NCBI RefSeq assembly: GCF_001436695.1
Contig: NZ_AYZG01000051.1
Location: 312,387-376,386 of the forward strand
DNA from: Lactobacillus taiwanensis DSM 21401
GTDB lineage: Bacteria; Bacillota; Bacilli; Lactobacillales; Lactobacillaceae
Direction of reading: 5' to 3'
Length of the DNA stretch: 64,000 nt
Part shown: positions 7,451 through 32,403 of the stretch, piece after piece
Layout of the letters: each line of letters begins with the position of its first letter
Position numbering within the stretch: position 1 is the stretch's first letter
Program-made: the position numbers and the translations under genes
The notes under the pieces: model-generated
Databases searched by the model: none
Told to the model about the DNA's origin: nothing
Seen by the model: the letters and a program-made list of their open reading frames with translations, nothing else

Positions 7451-7933
7451 CTACAACTTTATAACAGCTACATTTCCATTCTTATCAACTGCACGCATAC
7501 AATTGGTATAAACTTCAATATAGGCATAATGTTGATTATTAGCTAGAGAACGGCTTACTTCCATTTCAGGGGTCATCTTTTCACCAGTCTTATAATGATT
7601 TATAATTTGCAAGTTATCAGTCAAAGTATGAACTTCATATTCTTCGCCTAAATAACATTTACCTGCTATTCCTAATAAAATACCAGTTAGATCAACTTCA
7701 GGAAACTCAGCTTTAAATATCTCTTTAATTTTATCAATCTGATTTTGAGTAATCTTCTGATTTCCTGCATCTAAACTAACTATGGCATCTAGTAAAGCTC
7801 TTGGGCGTTTTTTTCTAAGTATTTTTTCAATTCTTGTATCGCTTAAATTAAAGGAAGCAAAATTAGATTGATTTTTCGAACTAATATTTAAATTATTATT
7901 TTCTCTTTCAAAATTAATTATTGGTCTAGGCAT
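7451..7933 (-). CDS. Hypothetical protein, last gene of Ycf46-type AAA+ cassette
   Basis: I do not recognise this 160-residue protein. Residues 1-30 are polar and Asn/Ser-rich. Residues 32-90 look like a small helical domain (IEKILRKKRPRALLDAIVSLD ... EIFKAEFPEVD). The C-terminal 60 residues look like beta strands (EYEVHTL, QIINHYKTG, YAYIEVYTNCMRAVD). There is no signal peptide or membrane segment. Its start codon overlaps the stop of the ATPase gene at 7933, so translation is probably coupled and the protein is likely a partner of the ATPase. Confidence 0.75.
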   Translation of the reverse strand: MPRPIINFERENNNLNISSKNQSNFASFNLSDTRIEKILRKKRPRALLDAIVSLDAGNQKITQNQIDKIKEIFKAEFPEVDLTGILLGIAGKCYLGEEYEVHTLTDNLQIINHYKTGEKMTPEMEVSRSLANNQHYAYIEVYTNCMRAVDKNGNVAVIKL

Positions 7934-9504
7934 TATAAAAGAACTCTCCGTGTTCTTGCTTCACTCGTTTTGCTTACAGCTTGTTCTCCGATAGGATGAC
8001 CAGAGGCGGGGACTGCTCGGGACTTTCCCCATTCACGTATTGCTGAGATTTTTTCTGGACTAGTCTGTGATAATGGCACTACATTATTGAATTCATCAAC
8101 AATATCTTGTGCTGAAAGATTAGATTCACCTGACATAACACCATATGCAAGATCTCTAATAGCAGATTCTAAATCAGCACCTGAAAAGCCTTCAGACATT
8201 TCTACTATTTTATCAGCAAATTCTCCTACAAAGTTTTTATTAAGATATTTTGCCATATATAAAGATAGAATTTCTCTTCGTTCATCAGCTGTAGGAAGAT
8301 CTACAAAAAATAATTCATCAAATCTTCCTCGTCTCAATAATTCAGCAGGTAATTTACTTACATCATTTGCAGTAGCAACAACAAAAACTTGCTTTCTACT
8401 TTCTTGTAACCAAAAAAGGAACTGCCCCACCATACGTGTAGACACTCCACCATCATTTGCACTACTTGCTCCCGAAAGTCCTTTTTCAATTTCATCTATC
8501 CATAAAACACAAGGAGATACTTGATCGGCAGTATTTAAGGCATCCCGCAATTGTTGTTCAGTTTGTCCCACATAACTGCCCTGAACTGTAGCAAAATCTA
8601 ACCTATACAAAGGTAAATTCCAGTTGGCTGCAATTGCTTTAGCAGATAAAGACTTTCCACATCCAGGTACTCCTACTAATAATACTCCTCGTGGTGGTCT
8701 TAAGCCTCTATTTTTTAATTCAGCACGCTTTTCGGGAGTTAATAGTTTTCTTTTAGAAGTAAGCCATTTTTTCAATCCACTCAAACCGCCAACTTGTTGA
8801 ATATTATCATCGATTTCAATTCTTTCTAATCCAGAAATATCATTAAATAATCGATCTTTAGCCGTCTGAACTTCTTTTAAATCTTCATTTGTAATACGAC
8901 CATTTGCAATTAAGGACGCAATAATATTTTCCGCCTCTATTTGAGTTGTTCCAGATAAATAAGAAGAAGCCTGTTGAATACTATTTTCATCCCAATCAAT
9001 TTGAATTTGGGATTTGTACGGCTGAAGCTGATTATTAATTATTTCAGTCATTTCATTTTCATTAGGTAAATCCAATTTAATAGACATGCCTTGACGCTGT
9101 AGTTGACTCCAAACACTATTATTGCTAATGGTTATGACTGAACCACCTACTTCAACAGCCAAATTAACTAAATCAAGTAATTTCTTAGCTGTATCAGTAT
9201 CAGTCGATATATTACTTATTTCTGTTAAAACTAGGGTTAGATTTTGAACTCCATTTTTCATTTGTTCACTTACAAAATCTAAAGCTGAATAAATTGAGTT
9301 ATCATCATTTACATTACTGCCATCTTGTAGATTGTATAATCCTTTTGACAAGGTATGAACTAAAAAGGGCGTATTTACTTCCTGACTAACATTTTTAATT
9401 ATACTTAACGCACGTGCGTGTTCAATTGTGTCAATTACAATGAACGGAATTCGTGCTTTAGCAAAGCGCTTCAACAAATTTTCCGATTCTTTTAAATTAC
9501 TCAT
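7933..9504 (-). CDS. Ycf46-like AAA+ ATPase
   Basis: Core enzyme of the five-gene cassette, 523 residues. Residues 1-200 look like a degenerate nucleotide-binding domain without a Walker A (FIVIDTIEHARAL, LTLVLTEISN). Residues 235-470 are a complete AAA module. It has Walker A GVPGCGKS at 278-285, Walker B VLWIDEIE at 333-340, sensor-1 Asn380 (VATAND), arginine fingers in RRGRFDE at 391-397, and sensor 2 FSGADLESA. This arrangement and the wording of the motifs match the Ycf46 family (COG0464) known from cyanobacteria and plastids. Such ATPases remodel or unfold proteins; the substrate here is unknown. It overlaps its neighbours by 1 and 8 bases. Confidence 0.9.
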   Translation of the reverse strand: MSNLKESENLLKRFAKARIPFIVIDTIEHARALSIIKNVSQEVNTPFLVHTLSKGLYNLQDGSNVNDDNSIYSALDFVSEQMKNGVQNLTLVLTEISNISTDTDTAKKLLDLVNLAVEVGGSVITISNNSVWSQLQRQGMSIKLDLPNENEMTEIINNQLQPYKSQIQIDWDENSIQQASSYLSGTTQIEAENIIASLIANGRITNEDLKEVQTAKDRLFNDISGLERIEIDDNIQQVGGLSGLKKWLTSKRKLLTPEKRAELKNRGLRPPRGVLLVGVPGCGKSLSAKAIAANWNLPLYRLDFATVQGSYVGQTEQQLRDALNTADQVSPCVLWIDEIEKGLSGASSANDGGVSTRMVGQFLFWLQESRKQVFVVATANDVSKLPAELLRRGRFDELFFVDLPTADERREILSLYMAKYLNKNFVGEFADKIVEMSEGFSGADLESAIRDLAYGVMSGESNLSAQDIVDEFNNVVPLSQTSPEKISAIREWGKSRAVPASGHPIGEQAVSKTSEARTRRVLL

Positions 9505-9973
9505 TTGGATCTAACTCCTTATATACTGGGTTATTTCTAATGACACTAACCAGTTCTTGATTTACGGAATGATCATTTTTAATTGCACTTTTTTCTAAAG
9601 ATTCTTGTACTTCTCGCATATTAGAAGTTACAGCGTTCTTCACATTTTCTTGTACTTCATTTGGTAAACATGGCAATATAACTGCATTCAACAAGAAATC
9701 ATATTTTTTTCTAGCATTTAATAATGTTTGAATAATATCATCAACAGAATGTGCAGTTTTAAAACCTTTATTTATACCTGTACTAATCAAATCTATTCTT
9801 GCTTGAATTGTTTGAAAAAGTACGTCAACAAATCTAGTTCCTACTTCTTGATTCCAATGTAATGTTCCTTTTTTCATTTCATCAACAACTGTATCATCAC
9901 CAGCTGCAAATTTATCCAGCACATCCACCCATGTCTTGTAAATATTTGGTGCAACGACTGCCTTATCTTTCAT
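9497..9973 (-). CDS. Hypothetical helical protein of AAA+ cassette
   Basis: Unrecognised 158-residue protein, predicted from its composition to be almost entirely alpha-helical (TRFVDVLFQTIQARIDLISTG, NARKKYDFLLNAVILPCL, NVKNAVTSNMREVQESLEKS). It has no membrane segment. It overlaps the ATPase start by 8 bases and the preceding small gene by 11 bases, so the three are translated together. A structural or adaptor subunit is a reasonable guess, nothing more. Confidence 0.75.
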   Translation of the reverse strand: MKDKAVVAPNIYKTWVDVLDKFAAGDDTVVDEMKKGTLHWNQEVGTRFVDVLFQTIQARIDLISTGINKGFKTAHSVDDIIQTLLNARKKYDFLLNAVILPCLPNEVQENVKNAVTSNMREVQESLEKSAIKNDHSVNQELVSVIRNNPVYKELDPNE

Positions 9974-10154
9974 TATTATGATTTCTCCTTACTGTTTCTA
10001 TCGGTGGTACCAGATCCCACTTTGGTAATCCATCGGCAAAAATTTCTTTTTGACTTGAGGAATTAACAGTTTCATGGTTAAAGTCAATAGCCTGAGCTTT
10101 ATTTGATTCAACTTCAATTTTAATATCTGCAAAAGGTGTTTCATTCATATCCAT
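9963..10154 (-). CDS. Small hypothetical protein with DGLPKWDLVPP motif, AAA+ cassette
   Basis: A 63-residue acidic peptide with no predicted domain. The notable piece is DGLPKWDLVPPIETVRR at about residues 41-57. This compact Pro/Trp segment looks like a docking motif rather than a folded core. The gene overlaps the next gene by 11 bases and follows the large coiled-coil gene by 2 bases. That strict packing argues that it is a real gene despite its size. Confidence 0.65.
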   Translation of the reverse strand: MDMNETPFADIKIEVESNKAQAIDFNHETVNSSSQKEIFADGLPKWDLVPPIETVRRNHNNER

Positions 10155-10156
10155 CT

Positions 10157-11851
10157 TTATTCCCCTACCTTAACTTCTCTTACATTATTTAAGGAAGATA
10201 CATAACTTGCTGGTTCTAATTTGTCTAAAAAATTATTAACATTTTCACTTTGAGAATCTACCGCACCAAGTTCGCGTCTAAAATCAACCACTTCAGCCAT
10301 AAGTGCCCTTATAACTTCCTGTCCACTATTTATTGTTCCTGTATATTTTTTCTTTAAATTCGTTCTACTATTACGTATTTTTTCATTATTAGACTTAACG
10401 TTAAATACCCATAACCCAGCAACAACTAGCCCAATTACTCCCAAAATAGGAGAAGCTGCAAAAAGGAGCACACTAATAATTCCTGCAATAATTGGTCCTA
10501 CATATTTCTTTTCCTGCATTACTTTAACTTTATCTTCACATTCTTTTTGCATATGCTTTTTATAATCAGCTAATAATTCTAATTCATTTGCACCATCGGC
10601 AGTTTTTCCGTGATAGCTATTTATTGTAAAACTTATTTCATTTGGTACATTTGCTCGGTGAGTAGCAACAAGATCATTATATGCTTGCTGTATCCATTCT
10701 TTAGATAAAGCAATTGCTAGTTTTTGAATAGCTATATTTCTCTTTTCAGGATCCATTTCCATAGCTGTATCAGTTAACACTTGCGCAAAATCCTTGCTCT
10801 GATCATAACTATGTTTTTTTACAGACATTTCGGCATTTGCTTTAACTGTATCCCCATTATTTTTTACAATTAATTCATTTAATTCTTTTTCACGTTGAAG
10901 ACCTTGCTCTTCTTGGTCATAATCAGTAACTAAATGCATTAAAATATTATCTAATTGTTTCTTCACAGCAGAGGCATCATTAGGCGTTTCATAAATATTC
11001 TTAAAATACTTCATAACTTCTTGATGTAAATACGCTTGATTTAAACTTGCCAGTATTTCATTAGCGTTGTTACTATATTTTGCTAACTGTGAATATCCAT
11101 ACTGTTTTTCCGGGATTAAAAGAGCTAGTGCTTGCTTCCATCTTGCTACTACACTGGCTTCAAAGCCGGGCTGCTTAGATAACTGATCCATCCAAACAGT
11201 AATTTTCTGGCCGATCTGGTGTTTACTATCAATTCCTAATAAGCCATTTGCATAAGCGTCAATTAAGACAATACTCTCTTGATCAATCTCGGTAGCACTT
11301 TGTGTATTTAAAAATTGTAAAACCCATCTTCGACTAGCATCCAATCGATTAGCACGTCGACAAATCAAGGCAAATAATATAGCCGTTTTTTTACTATTCC
11401 TATGCATAGCTTCTTTTAATGCTCTATTCGCTAAATCTTCTTCATCATTAATCCATGCAGAAATTGCTACTAAGGCAGGTGCCAGCCAATATGTTGGAGT
11501 CTTAATAAACAATTCATCAGTTGCTGTTGAAATAGAAGTTTTCTTTATAATATTTAAATCCGTAGCTTCAACGATTCCACGTAAAGATCTACGAATTTCT
11601 TTATAATGTCCATACTTCTTTTCAATATTTTGATTTATCTTAACAATTCTTTGTTCAGCCAAACTAATATTATTAGTTTTCTTCTGCTCAGCAATAAAAT
11701 TATTTAATTCTTGCTCTAGAGCTTGAACTTGTTGTGAAACAACGACTACATTTTTATCTACATTATCAACTCTTTGATCAATTACAGAAATTGATCTATC
11801 TAAACTTGCAATTGCTTTCTCTACTCCAGAAAGATCGATTACATCCGCCAT
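10157..11851 (-). CDS. Coiled-coil protein with C-terminal membrane hairpin, first gene of AAA+ cassette
   Basis: Unrecognised 564-residue protein. The start at 11851 (MADVIDLSGVEKAI) is chosen because GGAGG lies at the right distance; an upstream in-frame start has no such site. Residues 5-55 are a heptad-like coiled coil (SLDRSISVIDQRVDNVDKNV...QALEQEL). Residues 60-430 are helical and soluble. At about 450-483 two adjacent hydrophobic segments (YVGPIIAGIISVLLFAASP, ILGVIGLVVAGLWVF) suggest a membrane hairpin. The last 80 residues are helical again. It may anchor the ATPase complex at the membrane (inference). A promoter lies just upstream. Confidence 0.8.
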   Translation of the reverse strand: MADVIDLSGVEKAIASLDRSISVIDQRVDNVDKNVVVVSQQVQALEQELNNFIAEQKKTNNISLAEQRIVKINQNIEKKYGHYKEIRRSLRGIVEATDLNIIKKTSISTATDELFIKTPTYWLAPALVAISAWINDEEDLANRALKEAMHRNSKKTAILFALICRRANRLDASRRWVLQFLNTQSATEIDQESIVLIDAYANGLLGIDSKHQIGQKITVWMDQLSKQPGFEASVVARWKQALALLIPEKQYGYSQLAKYSNNANEILASLNQAYLHQEVMKYFKNIYETPNDASAVKKQLDNILMHLVTDYDQEEQGLQREKELNELIVKNNGDTVKANAEMSVKKHSYDQSKDFAQVLTDTAMEMDPEKRNIAIQKLAIALSKEWIQQAYNDLVATHRANVPNEISFTINSYHGKTADGANELELLADYKKHMQKECEDKVKVMQEKKYVGPIIAGIISVLLFAASPILGVIGLVVAGLWVFNVKSNNEKIRNSRTNLKKKYTGTINSGQEVIRALMAEVVDFRRELGAVDSQSENVNNFLDKLEPASYVSSLNNVREVKVGE

Positions 11852-11885
11852 ACTTATTCCTCCAATTTTATTAATTACGAATGCT

Positions 11886-11913
11886 ATTATAGCAATATCC
11901 AATATACTGATAA
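11886..11913 (-). promoter_or_regulatory. Promoter of the AAA+ cassette
   Basis: Minus-strand -10 TATAAT (11886-11891) and -35 TTATCA (11908-11913), spacer 16 bp. The -10 is perfect and the -35 weak. The start of transcription would lie about 30 bases before the ATG at 11851, so all five genes can be read from it. Confidence 0.6.
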
Positions 11914-12104: not shown

Positions 12105-13430
12105 CTATCCCCACCGATTCTTCCTCAAAGTTAGCCTAATCTTCGTCATAATTCGACCCTCAGGGATCATAATCGAATGTTTCGGAAAGGCTTCCTGAAC
12201 TCTACTTAAATAAGTAAAATAATTACCTCTTCCATATCGTCCATTTGGAGAATACAGTTGATATAACTTATCTGCACCCTTGTAATACTTATTACGATAA
12301 TATTGATGAGCAACACCTTTAGCTTTATGATGCATTCGATAATAATATTTACTTGTCGTTTTTTCGCGTATTTTTACTGCATTACCATCAAAAGTAAAGC
12401 CAATAAAATTAATTGTTTTATGCTTTTCATTTAGGCTCGGAGTAAAAAGATGCCCAATATTAACAATAGAATGACTTTGTAATTTATAAACTTGCGTTTT
12501 TTCTGGTTGTAATTCCAAAATACCTTTATCTTTAAATGCTTCAAATTTTAGAATTATTTTTTCAATATCATCAGTTGAACTAGTATCCATAGGTAAGATA
12601 ATTATAAAATCGTCACTGTATCTTCTATAAATACCGCCACATGCAACTACAAATTCATTTATCATCTTATCAATTTCTTGCATATAAACATTTGCTAGAC
12701 ATGCACTAATTGATGAGCCTTGTGGAATTCCTTTATTGTCCTGATGTCGCCTAATGTGTGATCGATATTTCTTATAATCACTTTGAGAGAGAATTCTTGG
12801 TTTAGAATTCATCTTAATCTTATCTTTTCTCTTCTTTGGAGTAAGATTATTTAATCGATAGAGATCTGTTAAATCCCAATAATCATATTTGGTAATTCGT
12901 TTAAATATCGCATAATAATCGGACTTAAGCCTATCGACTTGTAATAAATCACATAATCGCTCTTTTAAATATTGATGGTCAATTTTGTCAAAAAAGCTTG
13001 TAAAATCGCCAATCATAACATAAGAAGAAGGATGCTGAATCATAAACTGGTGCATTTTTCTAAATTCAGCAATAGTATCTGTATGTAGATCTGTTCGATA
13101 TGCTATTGGCACTTCGTAAATGCCATCTTGTTTTAGACGTGCATTATATTTTTTATTAATTAAAAAACTATAATATTGAAAAATACAACTATCAATATGA
13201 GATGCATAGCAAATAGTGCGCTCCTTAAGTTTTCTTCCTTCCGCTTTATTATATTTGTGATATTCAAGATCATATTTTATAAACGGATAAAAACCATGTC
13301 GCTCAATATTTTTAGAATTAGTAATATAGTTCTTGCATTTAGTTAAATCGGTTCGAAGATCAAAATGAGCATATCCTCTTTTACTCTTTTCTAATACTTT
13401 TGGATCTTTAAACCATTCATTAATATTCAT
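12105..13430 (-). CDS. Reverse transcriptase, DRT2/UG2-like (probable anti-phage)
   Basis: A 441-residue RNA-directed DNA polymerase. Motif A is in DFTSFFDKIDH (Asp142), the primer-grip region in GIPQGSSIS (234-242), and the catalytic YSDD at 271-274. There is no maturase (X), HNH or other added domain, so it is not a group II intron protein; nor is it next to a retron effector. RGYAHFD near the N-terminus and the YASHIDSCIFQYY segment recall the UG2/DRT2 group of defence reverse transcriptases; this subgroup call is from memory. The start at 13430 follows a TGGGGT site; the in-frame extension to 13517 overlaps the RNA hairpins. A structured, promoter-bearing leader lies directly upstream, as in DRT2. 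Confidence 0.85.
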   Translation of the reverse strand: MNINEWFKDPKVLEKSKRGYAHFDLRTDLTKCKNYITNSKNIERHGFYPFIKYDLEYHKYNKAEGRKLKERTICYASHIDSCIFQYYSFLINKKYNARLKQDGIYEVPIAYRTDLHTDTIAEFRKMHQFMIQHPSSYVMIGDFTSFFDKIDHQYLKERLCDLLQVDRLKSDYYAIFKRITKYDYWDLTDLYRLNNLTPKKRKDKIKMNSKPRILSQSDYKKYRSHIRRHQDNKGIPQGSSISACLANVYMQEIDKMINEFVVACGGIYRRYSDDFIIILPMDTSSTDDIEKIILKFEAFKDKGILELQPEKTQVYKLQSHSIVNIGHLFTPSLNEKHKTINFIGFTFDGNAVKIREKTTSKYYYRMHHKAKGVAHQYYRNKYYKGADKLYQLYSPNGRYGRGNYFTYLSRVQEAFPKHSIMIPEGRIMTKIRLTLRKNRWG

Positions 13431-13790
13431 AATTACCCCAATAAATGACGATACCCACTGGCAACGGAGAATAGCGTTCCTAACCAGTGGGTACAAAAAA
13501 TCAGACTTATAATTCATAACAGAGTAAACAGTGAGATGAATTATAACTACTCAGTAATGTCATGTATCTTCATGGTACCATAAAGACGAAAGGACCCAAT
13601 ATGAATCTCTCTCCTAGGACACGAATTCTCCTGTTAATTGTGGGAGTCTTCTGGATTACCCTAGATCAAGAAACATATTCTCTAGTAGCCGATCTTGGAA
13701 CTGAATTTATTACTAATATTATTAATAAATTCTGGACCGAGATCTTGACAACAATCCTTTTCCGTTATGCCTAATTTCATCATAACGCAT
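13431..13790 (-). ncRNA. Structured leader/ncRNA of the reverse transcriptase
   Basis: About 360 bases between a strong promoter and the RT start carry four clear hairpins on the minus strand. They are: CGTTATG/CATAACG (13787-13781 with 13769-13763); GAATTTATTA/TAATAAATTC (13732-13723 with 13712-13703); TTATAATTCAT/ATGAATTATAA (13546-13536 with 13517-13507); and TACCCACTGG/CCAGTGGGTA (13493-13484 with 13461-13452), which has an inner AACG/CGTT pair. All stems are perfect. In DRT2 systems the template RNA lies in this place and orientation. That it is the template here is inference. Confidence 0.65.
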
Positions 13791-13795
13791 ATATA

Positions 13796-13824
13796 ATAAT
13801 ATAAATAAAAAATAGATTTATCAA
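13796..13824 (-). promoter_or_regulatory. Promoter of RT-associated ncRNA
   Basis: Minus strand -35 TTGATA (13819-13824), a 17-bp spacer, -10 TATTAT (13796-13801). Transcription would start near 13789, just at the first hairpin of the leader. It lies in the short gap after the stop of the membrane protein gene at 13847, so the RNA and RT form their own unit. Confidence 0.6.
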
Positions 13825-13846: not shown

Positions 13847-14800
13847 TTATATTTTATCTTTTTCTGCATATTTAATATATTCTTCCATTTTTTTAAATTT
13901 TTTCTTTTCTGATTCTTTATTAAAAGCAACTAAGGCGCCAATAACAACTAAACACATAAATCCTAAGCCAAAACCAGATATCAAACTTTTCCATAACTCA
14001 ACTTTTTTACCAATTAGTAATTTCGTAAAAACAGAAATAATATTACTGTAATATCTAAATACAAATAAACTAACCACACTAATAAATAATGAAATCATAG
14101 AAAATATATTTGTATTGGCTCTAGCTATAATTTCTGACTTTAAATTAATAAAGTTATCTATATCTATATTTCTTAAAGTCCTTAAATTAGAAATAATATT
14201 TTTTCCTATTTTTTCATTTTTATCATCAGATTGTTTCAAAAAAATATCCGTTTTTACTTGATCAGTTAATATACTAGCCAACATATCTTCATTAAAATAT
14301 ATAGGATTTCTTGAAAATAATGTATAAAAATTACTTATCTTTTTTTCTTTAAAATATGAAGTGTAAGTTCCTAATAGACATCCGGGAAATAAATACAAAA
14401 TCAAATCTATTAAAAATGTATACATATATCCATAAATAAATATTAACGCCAATTCTTTCAATCCATACTTAGCTATAATGAAAGCTATACCTCCTAAAAT
14501 CATACTAAATCCACCACAAAGATACGGTATAAGAAATGGCCATTTTTTATATTTATTATCTAAAAATTTAAGTAATTTTACTCCTACACAAACATACCCT
14601 ACTATAATGACTACACTACAAATTATATAAGAAATAAATCCTATCAAATTACTGGCCCATCTAGTTTCTATAAAAATGGCCATCATCACGAAATAAAAAA
14701 CAGGTATGCTTTGTTCTACCACAGCATACTGATCAATTTTTCTAAACTTTAACTTATTAAAAAAATCTTTTATTTTATTCTTTTGAATTTTATTACTCAT
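13847..14800 (-). CDS. Hypothetical multi-pass membrane protein
   Basis: Unrecognised 317-residue protein. Hydrophobic segments lie at about residues 28-50, 52-75, 85-108, 112-140, 233-256 and 267-293, giving around six membrane spans. A soluble loop at about 150-225 contains TRLYTLF-like and LRTLRNIDID helices. The C-terminus is Lys/Glu-rich (KESEKKKFKKMEEYIKYAEK). Base composition is very AT-rich, like the rest of the island. It is upstream of the RT unit in the same direction but has its own leader, so a link to the RT is not shown. Confidence 0.65.
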   Translation of the reverse strand: MSNKIQKNKIKDFFNKLKFRKIDQYAVVEQSIPVFYFVMMAIFIETRWASNLIGFISYIICSVVIIVGYVCVGVKLLKFLDNKYKKWPFLIPYLCGGFSMILGGIAFIIAKYGLKELALIFIYGYMYTFLIDLILYLFPGCLLGTYTSYFKEKKISNFYTLFSRNPIYFNEDMLASILTDQVKTDIFLKQSDDKNEKIGKNIISNLRTLRNIDIDNFINLKSEIIARANTNIFSMISLFISVVSLFVFRYYSNIISVFTKLLIGKKVELWKSLISGFGLGFMCLVVIGALVAFNKESEKKKFKKMEEYIKYAEKDKI

Positions 14801-14989: not shown

Positions 14990-16442
14990 TGTCTTAATTG
15001 TCAACTTAGGAAAATGTCCTAATAAAATATTAAGTATGTCATAATCTCTTTTATTAGAAGTTATGGAACAAGTGAAAAGGATTTATTTAACTATGAAATA
15101 TGAAGAACAGTACAGACTCATTAAAGAACTTCTAGATCATAATGGAATACGCATAGAGCTGCTAAAAAGCTTGGTATTTCTGTTAGACAAGTAAATAGAA
15201 GAATTAAACAATATCAAGACAAAGGAAAGGCGGCCTTCGTTCATGGGAACAAAGACCGCAAACTTGTTAATTGTCTCACCACAGAAATTAACAATCAAAT
15301 TGTAACCTTATATCGCTCTAAATATCAAGATTGTAATCTAAAACATTTTGTTGAGCTGCTAGAAAATTTATAAGATATTCACGTCTCTTACACTAAGGTC
15401 TATACTCTCCTTAAAAAGTAAGATATTCTATCTCCTAAGCCATGGAAAAAGACTAAGCGTGCTTTAGTGAAAAAAGATGGCATACCCAACATTCTAAGCA
15501 AACAAAAGAAGAAGTTAAAGTTGCAGTCAATCATCAGCTAGCTGTGGCAGCTACCCATCCTCGTCATGAACGCTGCAAATATTTCGGCGAAGAAATTCAA
15601 ATAGATTCCTCAGTCTTAGTTTGGTTTGGTACTCAAAAAGCCTATTTGCATCTAGCAATTGATAACACTACTGGCATTACTGTTGGAGCTTATTTTGACT
15701 GGCAAGAAACCTTAAAGGGCTATTATCATGTCTTCAAACAAATTCTTCAAAACTACGGTATTCCACTCTGTTTTAAAACAGATAACCGCACTGTATTTAA
15801 CTACAAAACTGCTAAGACTAAATCTGCTCATAAGGATGTCCTCACGCAGTTTGGCTATGCCTGCAAAACTTTAGGCGTAGATCTTAAAACTACTAGCGTC
15901 TCACAAGCTAAAGGTATGGTTGAAAGAGCTAATCAAACTGTTCAAAGCCGTCTTAAACCTGAGTTAAGATTGGCAAGTGTAAAGACCAAACAAGTATCTG
16001 ACAGAACAGTTTATCCCTAATTTTAACAAGAAATTTGGCAATAAAACTCGCAAAGGGTGGTCTATTTTCAAAATTGCTTCTAGTGAGCGCAAAATTAATT
16101 ACACGTTTGCTGTTTTCAGTAGCAGAGTATTTGATAGCAAAGCAGCTATTTCTTTTAAGAACAAGCTCTATCAAGCTGTAAATGAATATGGCAAGCTAAT
16201 TTGTTTCATGAAAGGCATAATTGAGGTCCTAAATGGACAGTTACTGACTACAGTAGATGATCATGTTTATTTTCCTAAAAATGCAAAAATATCTCCAGAA
16301 ATAGATCAAGAGCCTAAAAAGAAAAGAGCTAGAAAAAATATATTCCACCAATGTCACATCCGTGAAAACGTGAATCATTTTTAAGGCAACAAGCAGAAGC
16401 TCATAAATATCATCAATATACATAAAAAGCGAAGAAAAATTC
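14990..16442 (+). mobile_element. ISNCY (IS1202-like) element, truncated on the right
   Basis: The left end is near 14990 (TGTCTTAATTGTCAAC) and the degenerate transposase occupies 15093-16425. At 16443 the intact left repeat of an ISL3 element begins and no matching right end of the ISNCY element is seen. The ISL3 insertion or a deletion has therefore removed it. The left boundary is approximate. Confidence 0.6.
15093..16425 (+). pseudogene. ISNCY-family transposase, multiply broken
   Basis: Conceptual reading: MKYEEQYRLIKELLDHN, frame change near 15150, RAAKKLGISVRQVNRRI (HTH), stop TAA at 15371-15373, stop TAA at 15419-15421, frame change near 15478. A 158-residue open part at 15544-16017 follows, holding the DDE core: IQIDSSVLVWF, LAIDNTTG, KTDNRTVF, AKGMVERAN. 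Another frame change near 15990 leads to a C-terminal part (GNKTRKGWSIFKI). The family is judged from this core. With two stops and three frame breaks it is inactive. Confidence 0.75.
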
Positions 16443-17899
16443 GGCTCTATACTTTTTCCTGTTGATGAATATCTATGATATTCTATCGACAGGATTTTTT
16501 ATTGCATAAAGAAAGAGGCCATAGCCTCTCTTAACTTAAAATCCTTCTTCGACCAATTCAATTAAGTTTACTAGGAGATTCTGCTATGTCCTCCTTAATG
16601 ATTGTATTAAATTTCATCTCAATATTGAAGACTCTAATATTATTTTTTCTGATTATTTTAAAAAATATATTAACGGCAAATATTATAATCTCTATGTAGC
16701 TGAACTTATTCAGCTACATTGTCCTTACTGTCTTTCCTCTAACCTTAAGCATAATGGTCATTATACTTCTAACGTACGCTTTATTACTGCTGATGCTAGC
16801 CATCCAGTTATTATCAGACTTAAAAAGCAGCGCGTTTTATGCAATGTTTGCTTTAAAGGATCACTGGCTCAATCTAATCTTATTAATAAAGGCTGCTATA
16901 TCTCTAACACGTCTAAGCGAAAAATACTTTCTGCTCTTACTGAAGATCGTTCAATGACTAGTATTGCTAGAGAACATACTGTATCTGTCAACACGGTTCA
17001 AAGAGTATTAGAATCCTGCTCTTCTAAGTTCTATGATGATTTTGATCATCTGCCCGAACACTTAGCCTTTGATGAATTCAAAGGTGTAGGCAAGAAGCTT
17101 CACTTTATTTGTCTAGATGGTGATACTCACAAAGTTGTTTAAATTCTTAGAACTCGTTTTAAGTCTAATATTTTGCGATATTTTTACAAGTTTACTCCTA
17201 AAGCTCGCTCAATGGTTAAGACAGTGACCATGGATCTTAACTGCTATTATCCAATCGTGGCCAGAGAATTATTTCCAAATGCTCAGATAGTTATTGACCG
17301 TTTTCATATGGTTCAAATGCTTACTAGATCTTTTAATATTTTCAGAGTTCAAATCATGAAGCAATTTAATAAAAGAAGCCGTGAATATAAGCTTTTAAAG
17401 TCCCCTTGGAAGCTTTATCTCATGAAATATGACAAACTTAATAAGACTACTTCCTACTACGATTCGCACTTTAAAGACTCTCTCACTCAAGAACATGTTG
17501 TCTTAGATGGTTTAGATTGTGACCAAACCTTAGAAAATACTTATTGGATTATGCAAGACTTTATGACTGCTATTCAAAATAAAGATGAAAAACAGATTAT
17601 TCACTTACTTAACTCAAAGCAAACTATAGGCAAGGAAATGCATCAAACACTACTGACCTTTAAGCAGAATTATACTGGTGTCCTAAACGGTATATCTTCT
17701 AACTACTCTAATGGTTGTCTTGAAGGTGTCAATCCCAAGATTAAGCAGATTGAGCGTACTGTTTATGGCTATAGAAACTTTAGTCATCTTTTAATTAGAC
17801 TTGAAGAAAATATTGTAAAAGAAAAAGAGCCAAACAACTATTTTCTAGTTGCTTAGCTCTCTTTATAAACTATTCATCTACAGAATTTGACAAACAGCC
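16443..17899 (+). mobile_element. ISL3-family insertion sequence, full length but inactive
   Basis: The ends are inverted repeats of the form GGCTnTnTn, then 7 bases, then CTGTnGATGAATA. Left is 16443-16476 (GGCTCTATACTTTTTCCTGT) and right is 17899-17866 (GGCTGTTTGTCAAATTCTGT). Both have the same 16-base spacing before CTGT. Length is 1457 bp, normal for ISL3. The flanking octamers AAAAATTC and ATTTATAT do not match, so there is no visible target duplication. It sits against the truncated ISNCY element. Confidence 0.8.
16600..17856 (+). pseudogene. ISL3-family transposase with internal stop
   Basis: Continuous reading from about 16600: N-terminal zinc-finger part (IQLHCPYCLSSNLKHNGHY, LCNVCFKG), HTH (MTSIAREHTVSVNTVQRVLE), then DDE segments (LAFDEFKGVGK; TVTMDLNCYYP; IVIDRFHMVQML; YSNGCLEGVNPKIKQIERTVYGYRNF). 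An ochre TAA at 17140-17142 splits it, and the usual ATG at the N-terminus is out of frame by a small indel near 16600. The C-terminal 227 residues are intact to 17856. No functional transposase is expected unless the stop is read through. Confidence 0.85.
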
Positions 17900-17922: not shown

Positions 17923-18474
17923 TTAAATAGTTAAATTCAACTTTTTTTCTAGTTCAAAAAGGGAGATACAAGTGATACCAAAATGACGAGCAATATCTGG
18001 AATCTTAGGCTCATGGCCCATCGGCCCTCCATTTCCTTTCCAATTCCATTTATTATTTTTATCATAGGCAAATTGACCACTTCCCTTTTCAAATGTTACG
18101 ATTTGATAATTATATTTAATAGCAATTGCTATTAACAGAGGATCAGCTTTACCTATTTTTTTCTATTCATTTATACTACTTGATTTATATGCACCACAAT
18201 CTTGAATGTATTTAATAACATTCCCATATTCAGCCCAAATTAAAGGGTCTTGATTTTCATCATAAATTACTGAAACTAAATTTTTCTGTGACCATTGAGC
18301 TAAATTCGGATCTACATTAATTTCATTACTTACACATTTGGGTACAATTAATAAACTATTGGTTTTATTTATTTCCTTTCCAAACCACTCCCAAAAAGAG
18401 GGAAAAATTTTAAAACCATAATATCGCTTCATTGGCTCAATAAAACAATTACTATCTAAGAGATACTTGGTCAT
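17923..18474 (-). pseudogene. DUF4411 PIN-like toxin with in-frame amber stop
   Basis: The first 103 residues (MTKYLLDSNCFIEPMKRYY, with Asp7 of the PIN-like active site, then FPSFWEWFGKEI) end at a TAG at 18163-18165. The same frame continues as KKIGKADPLLIAIAIKYNY, IVTFEKGSGQ and IPDIARHFGITCISLFELEKK to a TAA at 17923. One base change, probably TGG to TAG, has therefore cut a ~183-residue toxin-type RNase family protein. Its start overlaps the ImmA-like gene by 4 bases, the usual pairing for this module. Loss of a toxin while its partner survives is a common decay path. Confidence 0.8.
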
Positions 18475-19637
18475 TTATTTTTCTCCTCCACTCTAGCCTT
18501 TAATTTGTTGTAAGCGTGCATATTCTTCACATTTAACAAATTAAATGCATCTAAATAGGTTGTGTCTCCCTGATCCGTACTATTAATCACAGCAGACGCA
18601 AAATTATGGTCTAATTTATACGCCAACGTGTCATAGAAATTAGGCCCTCCAGTATGAGATGACTTAACTATAAATTGTGAAGTTTCTTTTTTAATTTCAT
18701 TAACTAATTCTTGAGAAATCAATTCATAATTTTTAGCTGTTATTGCCGTTGCCATAGGACTTGCTTTGAATTTTTTAGCTATTTTATAAATTTTTTCAAA
18801 ATCTGAGTTTTTAATACTATTCCAGTATCTAATAAAATATTTTTTATTAAATATAATGGATTCAGCTATTTTATTTACTCGCTGTTCAAATTTTTTATTT
18901 AGATATTTTGGGTCAGTTTGAAAATTATAATTAAATAATTCAGTTTTGCCATACCACAGATGTACTAATTCATGAACTAAAGAAAATAATCTCGCATTTT
19001 GGCTATCTTTTGTATTGATAAAAATTAAAGGAGCGTATCTTTTAATTAATACAAATGCTCTAAATTCATTAATATTTAAGCCATCTCTTGTATTATTTCC
19101 AACAAAACTACTCGTCTCTACTACTATCCCATGACTAGTAATTATAGTTCTAAGATAATTGAATGCATTTTGATTAGATTTAAGTTGAATATTCCAATCT
19201 TCTTTTAGATTAAAAAATTTCAAAATTTGTTTGGCGATTTCTTCCGAAGAGTGTTGACTATTATGCTCTCCCATTCCTACAAACAAAATTGGAGAATATC
19301 CCTCTCTTATTCTATAATCTTCAAGCCAATCTGATCTCATCTCCATAGAATCAATCATTTTTAACAATTCACTACTAACTTTTGTTACTTCGTCATTATT
19401 AATAGTTCGAAACTTAAGTAATGGAATCTCTTCCATAGGAGGATCTGACAAAAAGAAATTTCCAAAAGGAATTTGAGACTTTTTACTGAGAACTTGTAAC
19501 TGATGAATAGTGGGAGTTTTTTCTCCTTTCATCCACACTTTAATCTTATCAATCCAATCAACACCTAGTTTATCATCAGCAATCTGTAAAACCCATTTTA
19601 AAATTTTGTTATTGACTTTAAATGTTGCAGTTACCAT
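18471..19637 (-). CDS. ImmA/IrrE-family metallopeptidase with N-terminal HTH-like region (antitoxin partner)
   Basis: A 388-residue protein of the COG2856 group. Residues 10-75 resemble the XRE-like region (LGVDWIDKIKVWMKGEKTPTIHQLQVLSKK). The zinc peptidase motif HELVH is at residues 222-226 (LFSLVHELVHLWYG). The C-terminal part has FEQRVNKIAESIIF and FKASPMATAITAKNYELI. The start at 19637 is preceded by AAGAAGGTGGGAG; a GTG nine bases earlier is an alternative. In the family these proteins relieve repression or act as antitoxins with DUF4411 proteins, as the overlap here suggests. The toxin is broken, so the protein now stands alone. Confidence 0.85.
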   Translation of the reverse strand: MVTATFKVNNKILKWVLQIADDKLGVDWIDKIKVWMKGEKTPTIHQLQVLSKKSQIPFGNFFLSDPPMEEIPLLKFRTINNDEVTKVSSELLKMIDSMEMRSDWLEDYRIREGYSPILFVGMGEHNSQHSSEEIAKQILKFFNLKEDWNIQLKSNQNAFNYLRTIITSHGIVVETSSFVGNNTRDGLNINEFRAFVLIKRYAPLIFINTKDSQNARLFSLVHELVHLWYGKTELFNYNFQTDPKYLNKKFEQRVNKIAESIIFNKKYFIRYWNSIKNSDFEKIYKIAKKFKASPMATAITAKNYELISQELVNEIKKETSQFIVKSSHTGGPNFYDTLAYKLDHNFASAVINSTDQGDTTYLDAFNLLNVKNMHAYNKLKARVEEKNK

Positions 19638-19830
19638 TACTCCCACCTTCTTTACCTTTAAATGTATAGATTTATCCGAAAATTATACATCGAATTTCCA
19701 TTAATTATATATTATATCATTCATGAATATCTTAACATTATAAATATTTTATCACCTTTCAAATTCCTCAGCTATTAAGAATGCAATAGTCATTATTTTT
19801 AATAACTTTATTTTTAATAATTAAATTGTA

Positions 19831-23409: not shown

Positions 23410-24837
23410 TTATTTATGTATCTTTTCCTTTATTACCTGTCTACCTTCGTTAAGTATTGAAGCTTTCAATATCCAAATAGCTACTCCATAAATCAAAATT
23501 CCAATAAGAACTTCAATACCTAGCATTAACCATGATTGAGGCAAATGTAAATTCATCCAAAAGACTGGAATAAACATTAATATTCCTGCTACACAATACT
23601 TCCAAGAGTCTAAAAATAGCTCTTTAAAATTTAGAAGATCTCTAACAGCCCACATTTGATAGAATGTTACAGCTATTTCTGATATGACTGTTGACCACAT
23701 AGCCCCATTTAGCCCCCACATTTTAATAAGAGGTACATTTAAGATTAGATTTACAATCGCTCCTAAGGTGACAGACCATGTAAATTGCTTTTGTCTATGG
23801 ATAGGAAGCAAATATTGAACTCCAATTACATTACTCCATGCAATGATTAAAATCACAATAGATTCAATCATCATTGCTGGTCCAACTGGACCATATCCTG
23901 GACCATAATATTTTGGAGCTAATGTCAAGGAAATAGCAGCTAATCCAAACATCATAGGGTATGAAATAGCAGAAACAAAATTGAAAGACTTATAAAGCAT
24001 CTTATTTACTTTTTCCATATTTCCATGAGAAACTGCATTCGCCACATGAGGCAACATTACAGTCCCCGTGGCAGTTACAAGTGCCAAAATTAACTTTACT
24101 AAATTATCGGAATACTGATAATATCCTGATGCTGTTTCATTTACCATAACTCCGAGCATTGTTTTATTGAGTTGAACATAAACTTGAGTTGCAATTTGGG
24201 GAATAAATAGTTCCAACATTGGTAAAAAATGTTGCCATGGGTTTAACATTTTCCAATCTGTTCTACTTAAGTCACGTCGAATATTAGGCCACAATGTCAA
24301 GTTACCTAGCAAAGTAGATAGCGCCAAGACAATGATATAGAGGGTTACATCATCAGGCCCCTTAATAAAAATAAAAATAGCAATCATCGAAATTATTTTT
24401 ACAAAGGAGTTTTTCAACACAGTAACCTTAAAATCTTCTATACCTTCATAAAACCATGAAATATCTAAGGCCACCGCAATTAAGTTAATAGATTGTGCCC
24501 ACATATACTCAGGTTGACGAGTATAAAAAATCATAAATACTTCAAATGCTACGAATGCATATAGAGTCATTATTGTTTTTACAATTTGAATTTCCCAAAA
24601 GGTTTGTGACATTTGAGCTCTATTTTCACGTACATAAGCTATTTGTCGGTTTCCATAAAAACCAATTCCCATATTTGCGATTAAAATAAAATACTGAATA
24701 ATGGAATTTGTAAATGAATTTGCCCCTACACCTTCTGGTCGTAAGACTCTACTTACATAAGCAGAAGTTATTAGTGGAACAATAATTGCAAGAACTTGAT
24801 ATCCTACATTATATAGATAATTTTTTATAACCTTCAT
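23410..24837 (-). CDS. wzx: Wzx-type polysaccharide flippase
   Basis: A 475-residue MATE/MVF-like transporter with twelve to fourteen hydrophobic segments; the start MKVIKNYLYNVGYQVLAIIVPLIT is typical of Wzx proteins (RfbX/PST family). It should flip the undecaprenyl-linked repeat unit to the outer face of the membrane. It is packed between the glycosyltransferase at 24839 and the acyltransferase, with gaps of one base each. Together with the Wzy-like gene at 26840 it defines a Wzx/Wzy-dependent pathway. Confidence 0.9.
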   Translation of the reverse strand: MKVIKNYLYNVGYQVLAIIVPLITSAYVSRVLRPEGVGANSFTNSIIQYFILIANMGIGFYGNRQIAYVRENRAQMSQTFWEIQIVKTIMTLYAFVAFEVFMIFYTRQPEYMWAQSINLIAVALDISWFYEGIEDFKVTVLKNSFVKIISMIAIFIFIKGPDDVTLYIIVLALSTLLGNLTLWPNIRRDLSRTDWKMLNPWQHFLPMLELFIPQIATQVYVQLNKTMLGVMVNETASGYYQYSDNLVKLILALVTATGTVMLPHVANAVSHGNMEKVNKMLYKSFNFVSAISYPMMFGLAAISLTLAPKYYGPGYGPVGPAMMIESIVILIIAWSNVIGVQYLLPIHRQKQFTWSVTLGAIVNLILNVPLIKMWGLNGAMWSTVISEIAVTFYQMWAVRDLLNFKELFLDSWKYCVAGILMFIPVFWMNLHLPQSWLMLGIEVLIGILIYGVAIWILKASILNEGRQVIKEKIHK

Positions 24838-24838
24838 A

Positions 24839-25747
24839 TTAACTGCTTAAATTATTGTTTACTACCTTTTTTATAATATCGCTATCAATATTTTCATCAA
24901 ATTTGCGAGAAAAAAGATGCCCTTTTTTCTTAGCTTGTTGAAGCATATCATAGTCTTTCAATCGCCAAGTATAGGGACTACCATCCCACCAGTTTATATA
25001 ACGTAAATTTCCTTGAAACTCATCTGGTTTATCACTAACTTTAGTTGAGTCATATACTCGTTTTTTATATTTTGGAAATAGATTAATAAATATTGGAATA
25101 AATAATTCATCCACTAAAAATCCATTATGGAATAAGTGATAAATTAAATCTTCATTATCTACTAAGTCTGAGACAAGCTCATTATCTAGTGATACCCAAT
25201 TTGAGCCAAAACTAATTTTATCAATATTAATTCTTCGCTGTGGCATTTTAGAGTATAGTTTTGTTTCTATTCTATGATAGAGACCTTTAAATTTATTATC
25301 GGTTCTAAAAGTATTAGGGAAATGATAATTATGAAGTCTCACTGATAACTCTTTTGGATTTAAAGCTCCACTGTATGTAATAAACTCTTTATTTAGATTT
25401 TTATCAAAAAAATCATGTATTTGATCTTGATTAGCTAATGGTAAATCAAGACCGGAAAGTAAATGATAATAATCATAATGGCCATTATTTGCAGCTTTAA
25501 AAAGTGCTAGCTCTGCTTCAATTTGAGAATAATCTCCCCAAAATATATTTATTGGATCAATCATCGTTACAGTAGCATAGGTTGCTTTATAGACTGCTGG
25601 AAAGATATTTGTAGATTTCTTATCTAATAAAATAAAAATATCATTTCTAGAATCATCTAAGGTTGCTATTAACGTAGCTAACTGGTTAGGATTTCGATTA
25701 GCAATTATTAGATACGCATGTTTTCCCATTTTATTTTTCAAATTCAC
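24839..25747 (-). CDS. Glycosyltransferase family 14-like (core-2/I-branching type)
   Basis: A 302-residue protein of the family named after beta-1,6-N-acetylglucosaminyltransferases. The start HAYLIIANRNPNQLATLIATLDD, the motif YYHLLSGLDLPLANQDQIHDFF at about residues 91-112, and FGSNWVSLDNELV near 178 are diagnostic. It has no membrane segment and acts on the cytosolic side on the lipid-linked EPS unit. It overlaps glf by 17 bases. The sugar transferred cannot be told from the sequence. Confidence 0.85.
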   Translation of the reverse strand: MNLKNKMGKHAYLIIANRNPNQLATLIATLDDSRNDIFILLDKKSTNIFPAVYKATYATVTMIDPINIFWGDYSQIEAELALFKAANNGHYDYYHLLSGLDLPLANQDQIHDFFDKNLNKEFITYSGALNPKELSVRLHNYHFPNTFRTDNKFKGLYHRIETKLYSKMPQRRINIDKISFGSNWVSLDNELVSDLVDNEDLIYHLFHNGFLVDELFIPIFINLFPKYKKRVYDSTKVSDKPDEFQGNLRYINWWDGSPYTWRLKDYDMLQQAKKKGHLFSRKFDENIDSDIIKKVVNNNLSS

Positions 25748-26843
25748 CTTTTACAGACTCTAAAGCAGCTGAAATTACTTGATCCATATTGTAATACTTG
25801 TATTGACCTAAGCGACCACCAAAAATAACTTTATCATTTTCTTTTTCAGCTAATTCTCTGTATTGCTTGTATAATTCGTTATTTCTTTCATTGTTAACTG
25901 GATAATATGGTTCATCTCCACGTTTCCAATCAGCTGGATATTCACGTGTGATAATTGTTTTATCCTTATCACCTTTACCAAACTCAAAATGTTTGTGTTC
26001 AATTACACGAGTATAAGGGGTTTCTGCATCAGTATAGTTTATTACTGCATTACCTTGATAATTATCTACATCTTTTTCTTCAGTCTCAAAACGAAGAGAA
26101 CGATATTCAAGTTCGCCTAACTTATAATCAAAGAACTTATCAATCATGCCAGTGTAGACAATCTTATCAAAGTTCTTTAAATATTCATCCTTTTTATCAA
26201 AGAAATCAGTATTTAACTTAACTTCAATATTTTCATTATCAAGCATTTTTTCTACTATTTGGGTGTAACCACCTTTAGGAATTCCCTGATAATCATCATT
26301 AAAGTAATTGTTATCATAAGTTAAACGAACTGGAAGTCTTTTAATAATAAATGCTGGCAATTCTGTAGCTTTTCTGCCCCATTGCTTTTCTGTATATCCT
26401 TTAATTAATTTTTCGTAAATATCACGACCAATTAGGGAAATTGCTTGTTCTTCAAGATTTTGTGGTTCTTTACCAGCCATTTCTTGACGTTGATCGTTAA
26501 TTTTATCCATAGCTTCTTGTGGAGTTCTTACTCCCCACATTTCACTAAAAGTATTCATATTAAATGGCAAGTTGTACATCTTACCATAATAATTTGCTAC
26601 AGGACTGTTAGTATAACGATTAAATTCAGCAAATTGTTGTACATAATCCCAAACCTCTTTATTTGAGGTATGAAAAATATGTGCTCCATATTGATGAACT
26701 TGAATCCCATCAACTTCTTTAGTGTAAATGTTTCCTGCCAAGTGATCCCGTTGTTCAATTACAGTAACTTTATTACCACGTTTTGCTGCTTCATGAGCAA
26801 ATACTGCACCAAATAAGCCTGATCCTACAACTAAATAATTCAT
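25731..26843 (-). CDS. glf: UDP-galactopyranose mutase
   Basis: FAD enzyme converting UDP-galactopyranose to UDP-galactofuranose. The 370-residue protein has the FAD-binding GSGLFG at residues 7-12, QYGAHIFHTSNKEVW with the family's substrate-site residues, and the typical YTGMIDKFFDYKLGELEYRSL-type segment. Its length matches bacterial Glf. It overlaps the Wzy-like gene by 4 bases. It implies that the EPS contains galactofuranose, consistent with the galactofuranosyltransferase-like gene at 28132. Confidence 0.95.
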   Translation of the reverse strand: MNYLVVGSGLFGAVFAHEAAKRGNKVTVIEQRDHLAGNIYTKEVDGIQVHQYGAHIFHTSNKEVWDYVQQFAEFNRYTNSPVANYYGKMYNLPFNMNTFSEMWGVRTPQEAMDKINDQRQEMAGKEPQNLEEQAISLIGRDIYEKLIKGYTEKQWGRKATELPAFIIKRLPVRLTYDNNYFNDDYQGIPKGGYTQIVEKMLDNENIEVKLNTDFFDKKDEYLKNFDKIVYTGMIDKFFDYKLGELEYRSLRFETEEKDVDNYQGNAVINYTDAETPYTRVIEHKHFEFGKGDKDKTIITREYPADWKRGDEPYYPVNNERNNELYKQYRELAEKENDKVIFGGRLGQYKYYNMDQVISAALESVKGEFEK

Positions 26844-28132
26844 TCGTTTTTCCCCCGTCTAAATAAAATATATTTTAATACTATCCATGAGATTATCATA
26901 TACAAAAAATTTACGTTTAGGTTTTCAAAAAATCTATTAGAGAAGAAAGACAAAGCAATTAAGGCACCTATATAACTATAAACTAATTTCATAATTCCAA
27001 AACCATTGCTTTGCTTTGCAAACTTATAACATACTTCCCCAACACCACTAACTACAATAGTTAGAATTCCTATTCCCATATATCCAAAATCATATAGCCA
27101 AGAATAAAACATAGTTGCTACGTTACCAGTATTATGACCATTTAAAATTTGAAACGGTATATCCAATTTATAATCTGGCAAAGCAAATCGAAATACTCGT
27201 GATAAAGTTGGCAAAATTGTTACAAAAGTCTGTTGTCCAAAAATTTCCCCCTTTATTGGAAATGAACGATTTTTTATAAATTCATTTAAATTAGCAATTT
27301 CTGCTCCCATATAGGTAGAAATATATTCTCCTAGATTACTATTCTCCATATTTCTTCCCACTAAGCTAGCGGACCATTCAAAGACAAAAACAAACAAAAT
27401 TGCCCCTATAATACCTAAAACAACATATTTCGTATTTGCTGAATTCCAGTTATGTTGTTCTTTAACTATAAAGTATCCTAAAATAGTCAAAGCAATTAAA
27501 AATACAATACTATCGCCTCGAGCACCTGTTAATAGTGGAGTTGCGAGACCCAAAAGTAAATTAAAAAACAAAATTAAATTAAATTTTCGCTTTACTATTA
27601 TATTTTCCAGAAAAACATATCCAGCCATCATTCCAGCCGAACTATTAAAAAGAAGAATAAGCCCAAAATAACCTGGTAAATTTATTTGTCCTTTTATAAA
27701 TCCATTCTGAACATAGTTAATATAATTGATAGCAGTCATTAAATTTGAGATACCTGTAGCTCGCCTGATTGTAAATACTGCTAAACATAATATTACTAAT
27801 TGTATAAAAAGGATACTTGTAAATCTTTTATCAACATATTCGGGAATTACTTTATAAGGGGCTATTTTTTTTGCTCTAGTCCCACTTGATATAGTGTTGA
27901 AAATAAAATTTACAATGTATCCTACTATTATAAATTCTAACGCACCTAAGGTAATAACTAAGAACGTTCTTATATCCAACTCAAGATTCCAAGCTATTTG
28001 ATTAATCCAAGCAATAAAAGACGCTATAGTCATGCCGCCACAAAAAAGAATTGATGGTGAAACTAATGATCGATTATTTAGATAGTAGGCTAATAAAGTT
28101 AATAATACTAACGATAAAGTTAAAAATATCAT
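26840..28132 (-). CDS. wzy: Wzy-type polysaccharide polymerase
   Basis: A 430-residue hydrophobic protein with about eleven to twelve membrane segments and a larger extracellular loop at about 260-340 (LVGRNMENSNLGEYISTYMGAEIANLN...). The sequence is poorly conserved, as is usual for Wzy, but the segment GARGDSIVFLIAL and the position in the operon support the call. It would join repeat units on the outer face. It shares one base with the next upstream gene and 4 with glf. Confidence 0.8.
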   Translation of the reverse strand: MIFLTLSLVLLTLLAYYLNNRSLVSPSILFCGGMTIASFIAWINQIAWNLELDIRTFLVITLGALEFIIVGYIVNFIFNTISSGTRAKKIAPYKVIPEYVDKRFTSILFIQLVILCLAVFTIRRATGISNLMTAINYINYVQNGFIKGQINLPGYFGLILLFNSSAGMMAGYVFLENIIVKRKFNLILFFNLLLGLATPLLTGARGDSIVFLIALTILGYFIVKEQHNWNSANTKYVVLGIIGAILFVFVFEWSASLVGRNMENSNLGEYISTYMGAEIANLNEFIKNRSFPIKGEIFGQQTFVTILPTLSRVFRFALPDYKLDIPFQILNGHNTGNVATMFYSWLYDFGYMGIGILTIVVSGVGEVCYKFAKQSNGFGIMKLVYSYIGALIALSFFSNRFFENLNVNFLYMIISWIVLKYILFRRGKNE

Positions 28133-29055: not shown

Positions 29056-29057
29056 CT

Positions 29058-30152: not shown

Positions 30153-30158
30153 TAATTA

Positions 30159-32386: not shown

Positions 32387-32403
32387 CTACTGTATAAATC
32401 ATG

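Follow-up and report, generated by a model that had tools for sequence, protein, structure and literature searches.

DRT2, for which UG2 is an older name, includes KpnDRT2 of Klebsiella pneumoniae, one of the closest known systems to the locus described here. According to the available text of two reports (PMC12039810, PMC11100668), the reverse transcriptase (RT) of KpnDRT2 copies a template lying between two ACA words of a non-coding RNA (ncRNA) into tandem complementary DNA (cDNA), each junction of which brings a −35 and a −10 box together at a distance of 17 bp; the repeat contains no stop, and its length is a multiple of three. Wilkinson et al. noted that most conserved residues of the resulting protein, Neo, follow from the conservation of the promoter and of ACA. 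For divergent DRT2 clades, Tang et al. predicted the RNAs and, in the available text, called the annotation of Neo there ‘more challenging’, other mechanisms being possible (PMC11100668). The related defence RTs of DRT9 and DRT10 likewise carry out repetitive RNA-templated DNA synthesis, yielding homopolymer DNA and short tandem repeats, respectively; both are protein-primed, and the available text describes no gene in their products (PMC12632851). Here we analysed a stretch of 64,000 nucleotides of Lactobacillus taiwanensis DSM 21401 (contig NZ_AYZG01000051.1, positions 312,387 to 376,386; hereafter the window), for which a DRT2-like RT with a hairpin-rich upstream RNA had been proposed from the letters alone (the original prediction). 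With a probability of about 0.85, we read it as a complete DRT2-type abortive-infection locus with an ncRNA-templated Neo of 64-residue repeats. The candidate neo gene in the leader goes beyond the original prediction, in which neo was not seen.

The window locus shares with KpnDRT2 (PDB 9c0i and others) a single RT behind a pseudoknotted ncRNA, a predicted template flanked on one side by a 5′ hairpin and on the other by a 3′ scaffold, and a TTGACA near the cDNA end and a −10 box near its start that lie 17 bp apart only across the junction. Common to both are also the stop-free repeat divisible by three and, past the −10 box, a ribosome-binding core and a start codon. In contrast, the two RTs are distant (phmmer E 2.2e-40), the Photobacterium relative of KpnDRT2 being 29% identical to the window RT, and the ACA/ACA words and 120-nt repeat of KpnDRT2 are replaced in the window by AUUG/AUGA and a predicted repeat of 192 nt.

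The stand-alone RT with a YSDD active site and without maturase or intron domains, as first described, was confirmed, and its DRT2 type was supported. An open reading frame (ORF) at 12105–13517(−) is present and intact, RVT_1 was its sole Pfam domain above cut-off, and the protein carries no extra effector domain and is encoded downstream of the ncRNA. The PADLOC Drt2 models scored 422.5 and 243.3 bits against 66.9 bits for the runner-up family, Drt9, and the 5′ end of the leader corresponds to the Rfam family RT-6 (see below). At E 0.001 the RT matched three solved sequences, two of them named Drt2 and one ‘RNA-dependent DNA polymerase’. Weak matches to retron and maturase models might hint at a retron or group II intron remnant, a reading that is almost certainly wrong: these scores lie far under the cut-offs (39.5 versus 235 and 73.9 versus 300), no maturase domain rose above its cut-off, neither a group II intron nor a retron RNA was among the Rfam matches in the window, and the DRT2 profiles matched far better. 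Of the alternative clades named in the original prediction, retrons and group II introns are disfavoured by the profile scores.

As relatives we took the best 80 of 160 loci from an alignment-based scan of GTDB genomes, which with the window gave 81 loci; the record titles of the relatives were mostly of Bacillota, such as Lactobacillus, Lachnospiraceae, Oscillospiraceae and Paenibacillus, and loci are cited below by L numbers. A quick tree built from 103 RTs grouped the window RT with Lactobacillus copies inside a Bacillota clade among the DRT2 relatives; KpnDRT2 and its Gram-negative kin branched apart, and so did a second group from the order of the window. This tree took in DRT2 relatives and an outgroup of two long-branch RTs set by hand, other UG groups being absent; 103 of 126 rows were used, the 23 dropped being near-copies, short or other RTs. 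Among the 103, 25 were unlabelled, L033 was marked AUUG despite yielding no unit, and L123–L127 received their Kpn label from kinship or annotation and not from a tested word. By its profile scores the locus belongs to DRT2, and in this tree it falls within a divergent clade of Bacillota that lies far from KpnDRT2.

The genome of the window holds one DRT2 RT copy. The same-genus genome L. johnsonii ATCC 33200 holds two, ∼5.7 kb apart (L031:3478–5189 and L031:9134–10879), with RTs 92% and 84% identical to that of the window, the next best match in the order being ∼36% identical. The leader of the first copy is 97% identical to that of the window, and its RT match is split into two overlapping pieces in different frames, so that this RT looks frameshifted; the second copy has a leader 83% identical and an RT match in one piece. 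The true start of the window RT is most likely the ATG at 13430 (MNINEWFK) and not position 13517, because the first 29 codons of the long ORF fall within the terminal hairpin of the ncRNA and because, ahead of the corresponding ATG, any ATG, GTG or TTG is missing from the second copy in L. johnsonii.

Leaders of the clade carry near their 5′ end the sequence AUUGUUGUCAA, the complement of which is TTGACAACAAT, and before the RT a hairpin whose loop contains the complement of TATAAT, followed by AUUG. When the cDNA end is joined to the cDNA start at those words, TTGACA-17 bp-TATAAT results. To find the repeat we used a rule that ignores length and frame and that was settled once these loci had been looked at a first time. 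It took the best 5′ motif, allowing up to two mismatches, together with whichever 3′ site scored best for −10 likeness and word match at a 17-bp spacer. Since the 5′ motif itself holds the TTGACA complement, the 3′ site is picked by −10 likeness and word, and the spacer is built in, counts of promoter boxes among these units prove nothing. The 5′ motif was present in 75 of the 81 loci, and 71 of these 75 yielded a unit, between 123 and 192 nt long across the clade, whose length was a multiple of three and which could be read round the circle without a stop, in the same frame each time. Among non-redundant units 40 of 43 fitted (binomial p 3e-16 on length alone). From 1500 shuffled leaders, 31.4% of the lengths were divisible by three and 5.7% were open, and interior shuffles of the units led to an expectation of 12.5 open units out of 71. 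A ribosome-binding core followed within 27 nt of the −10 box in 62 of the 71 units, and an in-frame ATG, GTG or TTG well spaced from such a core was found in 46. The leaders are predicted to encode a candidate neo gene. That this simple rule recovers it for 71 of 75 loci within a single divergent clade suggests the same mechanism with a changed restart signal.

In the window itself, TTGACA and TACCAT lie 17 bp apart only across the junction of the predicted repeat (Table 1), and the predicted Neo repeat is YLHGTIKTKGPNMNLSPRTRILLLIVGVFWITLDQETYSLVADLGTEFITNIINKFWTEILTTM; the unit of L038 and that of the window show a difference of 9 nt, i.e. three codons. The strength of the neo prediction lies in the clade and not in the single locus, because 199 of 5000 interior shuffles of the window unit alone were open as well. 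The share of the residues AILMFWVC in the predicted repeat, 44%, is among the lowest in the clade (44–65%, median 54%) and says little, because another frame of the same unit reaches 42%. No relatives of the neo ORF were found in phage records. We also applied the ACA rule to the window: four ACA occur in the leader, and the four pairs more than 60 nt apart gave units of 69, 74, 76 and 81 nt, of which those of 69 and 81 nt were multiples of three with an open frame; all were rejected because they end without a −35 half. Other spacers, of 14 and 20 bp, likewise led to multiples of three, and microhomology did not single out 17 bp, with two common letters at this spacer and three at 13 and 14 bp. 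The 17-bp spacer was adopted because the homologous loci L043 and L044 share four letters exactly there, and on account of the rest of the clade.

The 5′ jump word was AUUG in 61 of the 71 units and the 3′ word AUUG in 45. Both words had four letters in common in 40 units, three in 14, two in 16 and none in one. An ACA lay within 3 nt of the 5′ junction in three and of the 3′ junction in ten of the 71 units, and the 5′ junction of the window was without one; because the ACA words flanking the template are absent, the window was not filed under the KpnDRT2-type core clade.

The structured upstream RNA of the original prediction was borne out, as the leader folded better than its shuffles (z −2.99; 1 of 100 shuffles equally good) and gave a covariance match of 57.7 bits to RT-6. 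This RNA was also matched at the first L. johnsonii copy and, among 20 relatives hand-picked from the 80, ahead of the RT in 18 (L058 and L095 were missed). By these matches, RT-6 forms the 5′ end of the RNA that accompanies DRT2 in this clade, which ties a family of Rfam to DRT2; the model extends over no more than the 5′ hairpin and the first part of the template, and the full window ncRNA is predicted at ∼346 nt. Among 398 genomes of the phylum, under strict filters, two had RT-6 at E ≤ 0.001, that of the window alone exceeding the cut-off. The four stems claimed to be perfect, of 7, 10, 11 and 10 bp, all exist. Perfect are those of the 5′ hairpin (13763–13769/13781–13787, 7 bp), the 11-bp hairpin (13507–13517/13536–13546) and the terminal hairpin (13452–13461/13484–13493, 10 bp), while the fourth (10 bp, GAATTTATTA/TAATAAATTC) turned out to be the core of a longer imperfect 27-nt pair, 13691–13717/13718–13744, which is 81% complementary. 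Of the leader's own promoter there stands a sigma-70-like TTGATA-17-TATTAT directly upstream, at 13824–13796(−), with 10 of 12 matches to the consensus; the scanned stretch held two such sites versus 4.4 expected from shuffles, i.e. no excess.

The linker 3′ of the template can pair with the loop of the terminal hairpin, forming a predicted pseudoknot. The loop pattern was present in 42 loci, and every one of them allowed seven of seven pairs (G-U allowed), with 14 different sequence combinations; shuffled linkers attained seven pairs in 22 of 840 cases. Beyond the terminal hairpin, a 12-nt tail, defined from the pseudoknot loop in 42 of 71 loci, complements the 3′ site; the pairings are GUCAU/AUGAC in Lactobacillus, CCAAU/AUUGG in L043, UCCAAU/AUUGGA in L045 and UGCAAU/AUUGCA in several Clostridia. 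The mean pairing in the 42 loci was 4.17 bp, compared with 3.40 bp for swapped tails, and none of 2000 swaps was as high, kinship being ignored; in an earlier, cruder test with many wrong tails, the means were 3.20 and 2.87 and none of 300 swaps was as high. The window tail would set the first cDNA base at + 13564, which is also the start given by the promoter spacing. Since the tail complements the restart site and the two change together, self-priming of cDNA synthesis by the 3′ tail of the ncRNA is suggested. In KpnDRT2 a DNA primer is attached to the 3′ end of the ncRNA and the cDNA is joined to that end (PMC12039810), which fits tail priming in the present clade.

The RT family, the conserved RNA parts, the length and open frame of the units across the clade and the co-varying pseudoknot and tail can be read from the sequences; for the RT reaction, the triggering by phage, transcription, toxicity and defence, the following scheme leans on the KpnDRT2 work. 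A single promoter would produce the ncRNA and, by read-through, the RT, which would be held by the 5′ hairpin and the pseudoknotted 3′ domain of the ncRNA, leaving the middle as template. The GUCAU tail may then pair with AUGAC 3′ of the template and prime the cDNA, the first nucleotide being + 13564. Every junction would set TTGACA 17 bp ahead of the −10 box and create a promoter which, followed by AAGG and ATG, could drive the stop-free frame. The resulting Neo with its 64-residue repeats would be expected to arrest growth and so to block the phage.

Several observations weigh against this reading. The NCBIfam model Drt2, although the top NCBIfam match of the RT, scored 322.9 bits versus a curated cut-off of 390, which fits a divergent DRT2 member, the threshold being one for naming and no property of the system itself. 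In L. johnsonii, the second copy fell below the RT-6 cut-off. The 5′ motif was absent in six loci (L056, L099, L104, L106, L107 and L113), four of the 75 with the motif (L083, L089, L110 and L117) failed the test of length and frame, L033, in which RT-6 is weak, yielded no unit, and L112, one of the 71, has a poor −35 box, TTTACG. The pseudoknot test covered 42 of the 71 loci, the other 29, without the loop pattern, being left out, and in 16 of the 42 the tail paired with the site over 2–3 bp only. In 25 of the 71 units there was no well-spaced ATG, GTG or TTG, 13 having ATA, ATT or ATC only and 12 nothing, and codon-level selection on the neo frame was not found in the seven Lactobacillus-type units (pN/pS, the ratio of non-synonymous to synonymous polymorphism, 0.67 versus 0.61–0.96 in the five other frames). 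The last two findings would suit a DRT2 RT with a structured template RNA whose cDNA is no gene, the open frame being a by-product of constraint on the RNA and the effector the DNA itself or a ribonucleoprotein; so would the recurrent residues of the Neo repeats, which are largely those fixed by promoter and jump words. We consider this unlikely, as structure in the RNA alone needs neither a length divisible by three nor an open frame in 71 of 75 units of 123–192 nt, as a ribosome-binding core follows the −10 box in most of them, and as KpnDRT2 offers an experimental precedent in the available text of its reports (PMC11100668, PMC12039810).

The window brings two further points of this kind, a weak −10 box, TACCAT, and jump words, AUUG (5′) and AUGA (3′), with only two letters (AU) in common; AUGA is also the 3′ word of its six close copies, which likewise share AU only. 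On these grounds DRT2 could work elsewhere and be weakened or decayed in the lineage of the window, its 3′ word having drifted to AUGA and template jumping having become imprecise or lost. Such decay appears very improbable to us, given that AUGA is kept in all seven copies together with a matching RNA tail (GUCAU or UCAU), that all seven units retain a length divisible by three and an open frame, and that the RT frame of the window is intact. A functional DRT2 with a templated Neo is accordingly preferred for the window, and the locus offers a Gram-positive test system in lactobacilli with a predicted priming pairing. In the open literature searched, no account of Neo in a Gram-positive DRT2 or of the AUUG word was among the matches listed, the final journal version of Tang et al. 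lying outside that set.

In a scan of other DRT2 and RT loci for which no word was prescribed, the top candidate was an open unit at 18 of 36 loci versus 9 of 360 shuffled runs, four of the 40 loci (L019, L099, L104 and L127) being left out as their upstream DNA was too short. Open multiple-of-three units were seen with the cDNA word AAAC/AAC (L005, L007, L008, L009, L010, L012, L013 and others) and with ATAC (L035, L036, L106 and L121), and the labelled rows of each group clustered on the RT tree. The Photobacterium relative of KpnDRT2 gave a 111-nt unit, which is among the lengths listed by Wilkinson et al. for close homologs. Such neo-like units in other DRT2 clades are a lead and not a result. 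A wider conjecture, for which we see roughly even odds, is that gene synthesis by DRT2 is family-wide, the jump word being replaced from clade to clade (AUUG here, AATAC- and AAAC-like cDNA words elsewhere, ACA in KpnDRT2); constant throughout would be the junction promoter with its 17 bp and a repeat length divisible by three. In the Bacillota clade, the ncRNA tail would then itself act as primer, annealing to the alignment site in the manner of telomerase and co-evolving with it, and realignment in Lactobacillus would need only two letters, so that the jump would be placed by the architecture of the RNA and not by the word.

Table 1. Predicted features of the DRT2 locus in window coordinates.
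Feature	Position	Strand	Basis
DRT2 reverse transcriptase, start MNINEWFK, 441 aa, YSDD	12105–13430	−	profiles, ORF, start comparison
Predicted DRT2 ncRNA, ∼346 nt	13445–13790	−	5′ end from promoter, 3′ end from pairing tail
Possible promoter for ncRNA and RT, TTGATA-17-TATTAT	13796–13824	−	consensus match only
Rfam RF03027 RT-6 match	13711–13789	−	57.7 bits versus gathering cut-off 46.7; all 75 model positions
5′ hairpin, 7 bp	13763–13787	−	hairpin also at this place in other leaders printed
11-bp hairpin, 3′ of template	13507–13546	−	stem search
Terminal hairpin, 10 bp	13452–13493	−	stem search
Pseudoknot 5′ strand, GAGUAGU	13546–13552	−	
Pseudoknot 3′ strand, GCUAUUC, within terminal hairpin loop	13469–13475	−	
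3′ jump/priming site AUGAC, directly 3′ of template	13559–13563	−	
3′ tail GUCAU, complementary to AUGAC; proposed primer	13445–13449	−	
Predicted cDNA repeat, 192 nt (64 codons), one circular frame free of stops	13564–13755	+	
−35 half of predicted neo promoter, TTGACA, close to cDNA repeat end	13745–13750	+	
−10 half, TACCAT, with TG at 13573–13574, close to cDNA repeat start	13576–13581	+	
Possible neo ribosome-binding core AAGG, seven bases ahead of ATG	13590–13593	+	
Candidate neo, first-repeat coding part from ATG 13601; cDNA continues through 13564–13600, then repeats	13601–13755	+	

Some match to the RT was found in 56 of 395 genomes of the order, that of the window included. Of the RT matches, 28 were in plasmid records and three in phage records, every one below 60% identity. 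In viral contigs, a single-query scan found no relative of the window RT, and an alignment-based scan found five distant ones (27–38%). One assembly carries two DRT2 RTs, L056 and L057, the former without a recognisable leader of this type within 480 nt. A Lactobacillus-like DRT2 (L041, 82% identical to the window RT) lies on a contig binned to an unrelated metagenome-assembled genome, and so do the near-identical RTs of L095 and L109; these placements may be binning errors or recent transfer.

Beside the RT, a run of genes at 7933–11902 includes an AAA ATPase (phrog_8638, 345 bits, with weaker matches to IetA) along with two proteins for which no family exceeded its cut-off; the run may be a further stress or defence unit. 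On the strand of the ncRNA and immediately upstream of it, 13847–14800 encodes a 317-aa protein without a family match above cut-off, which by eye looks membrane-bound. Transposon remains occupy 15544–17856, with a short ORF at 15544–16020 that is integrase-like by eye, without a Pfam match at E 0.001, and part of an ISL3 transposase at 17173–17856. The protein encoded at 18471–19646 has an IrrE-like M78 peptidase domain and weak PADLOC matches to capP/RmrA. Further on, 23410–35419 is probably an exopolysaccharide cluster, since the three proteins tested match polysaccharide synthesis, a glycosyltransferase and a ParA-like ATPase.
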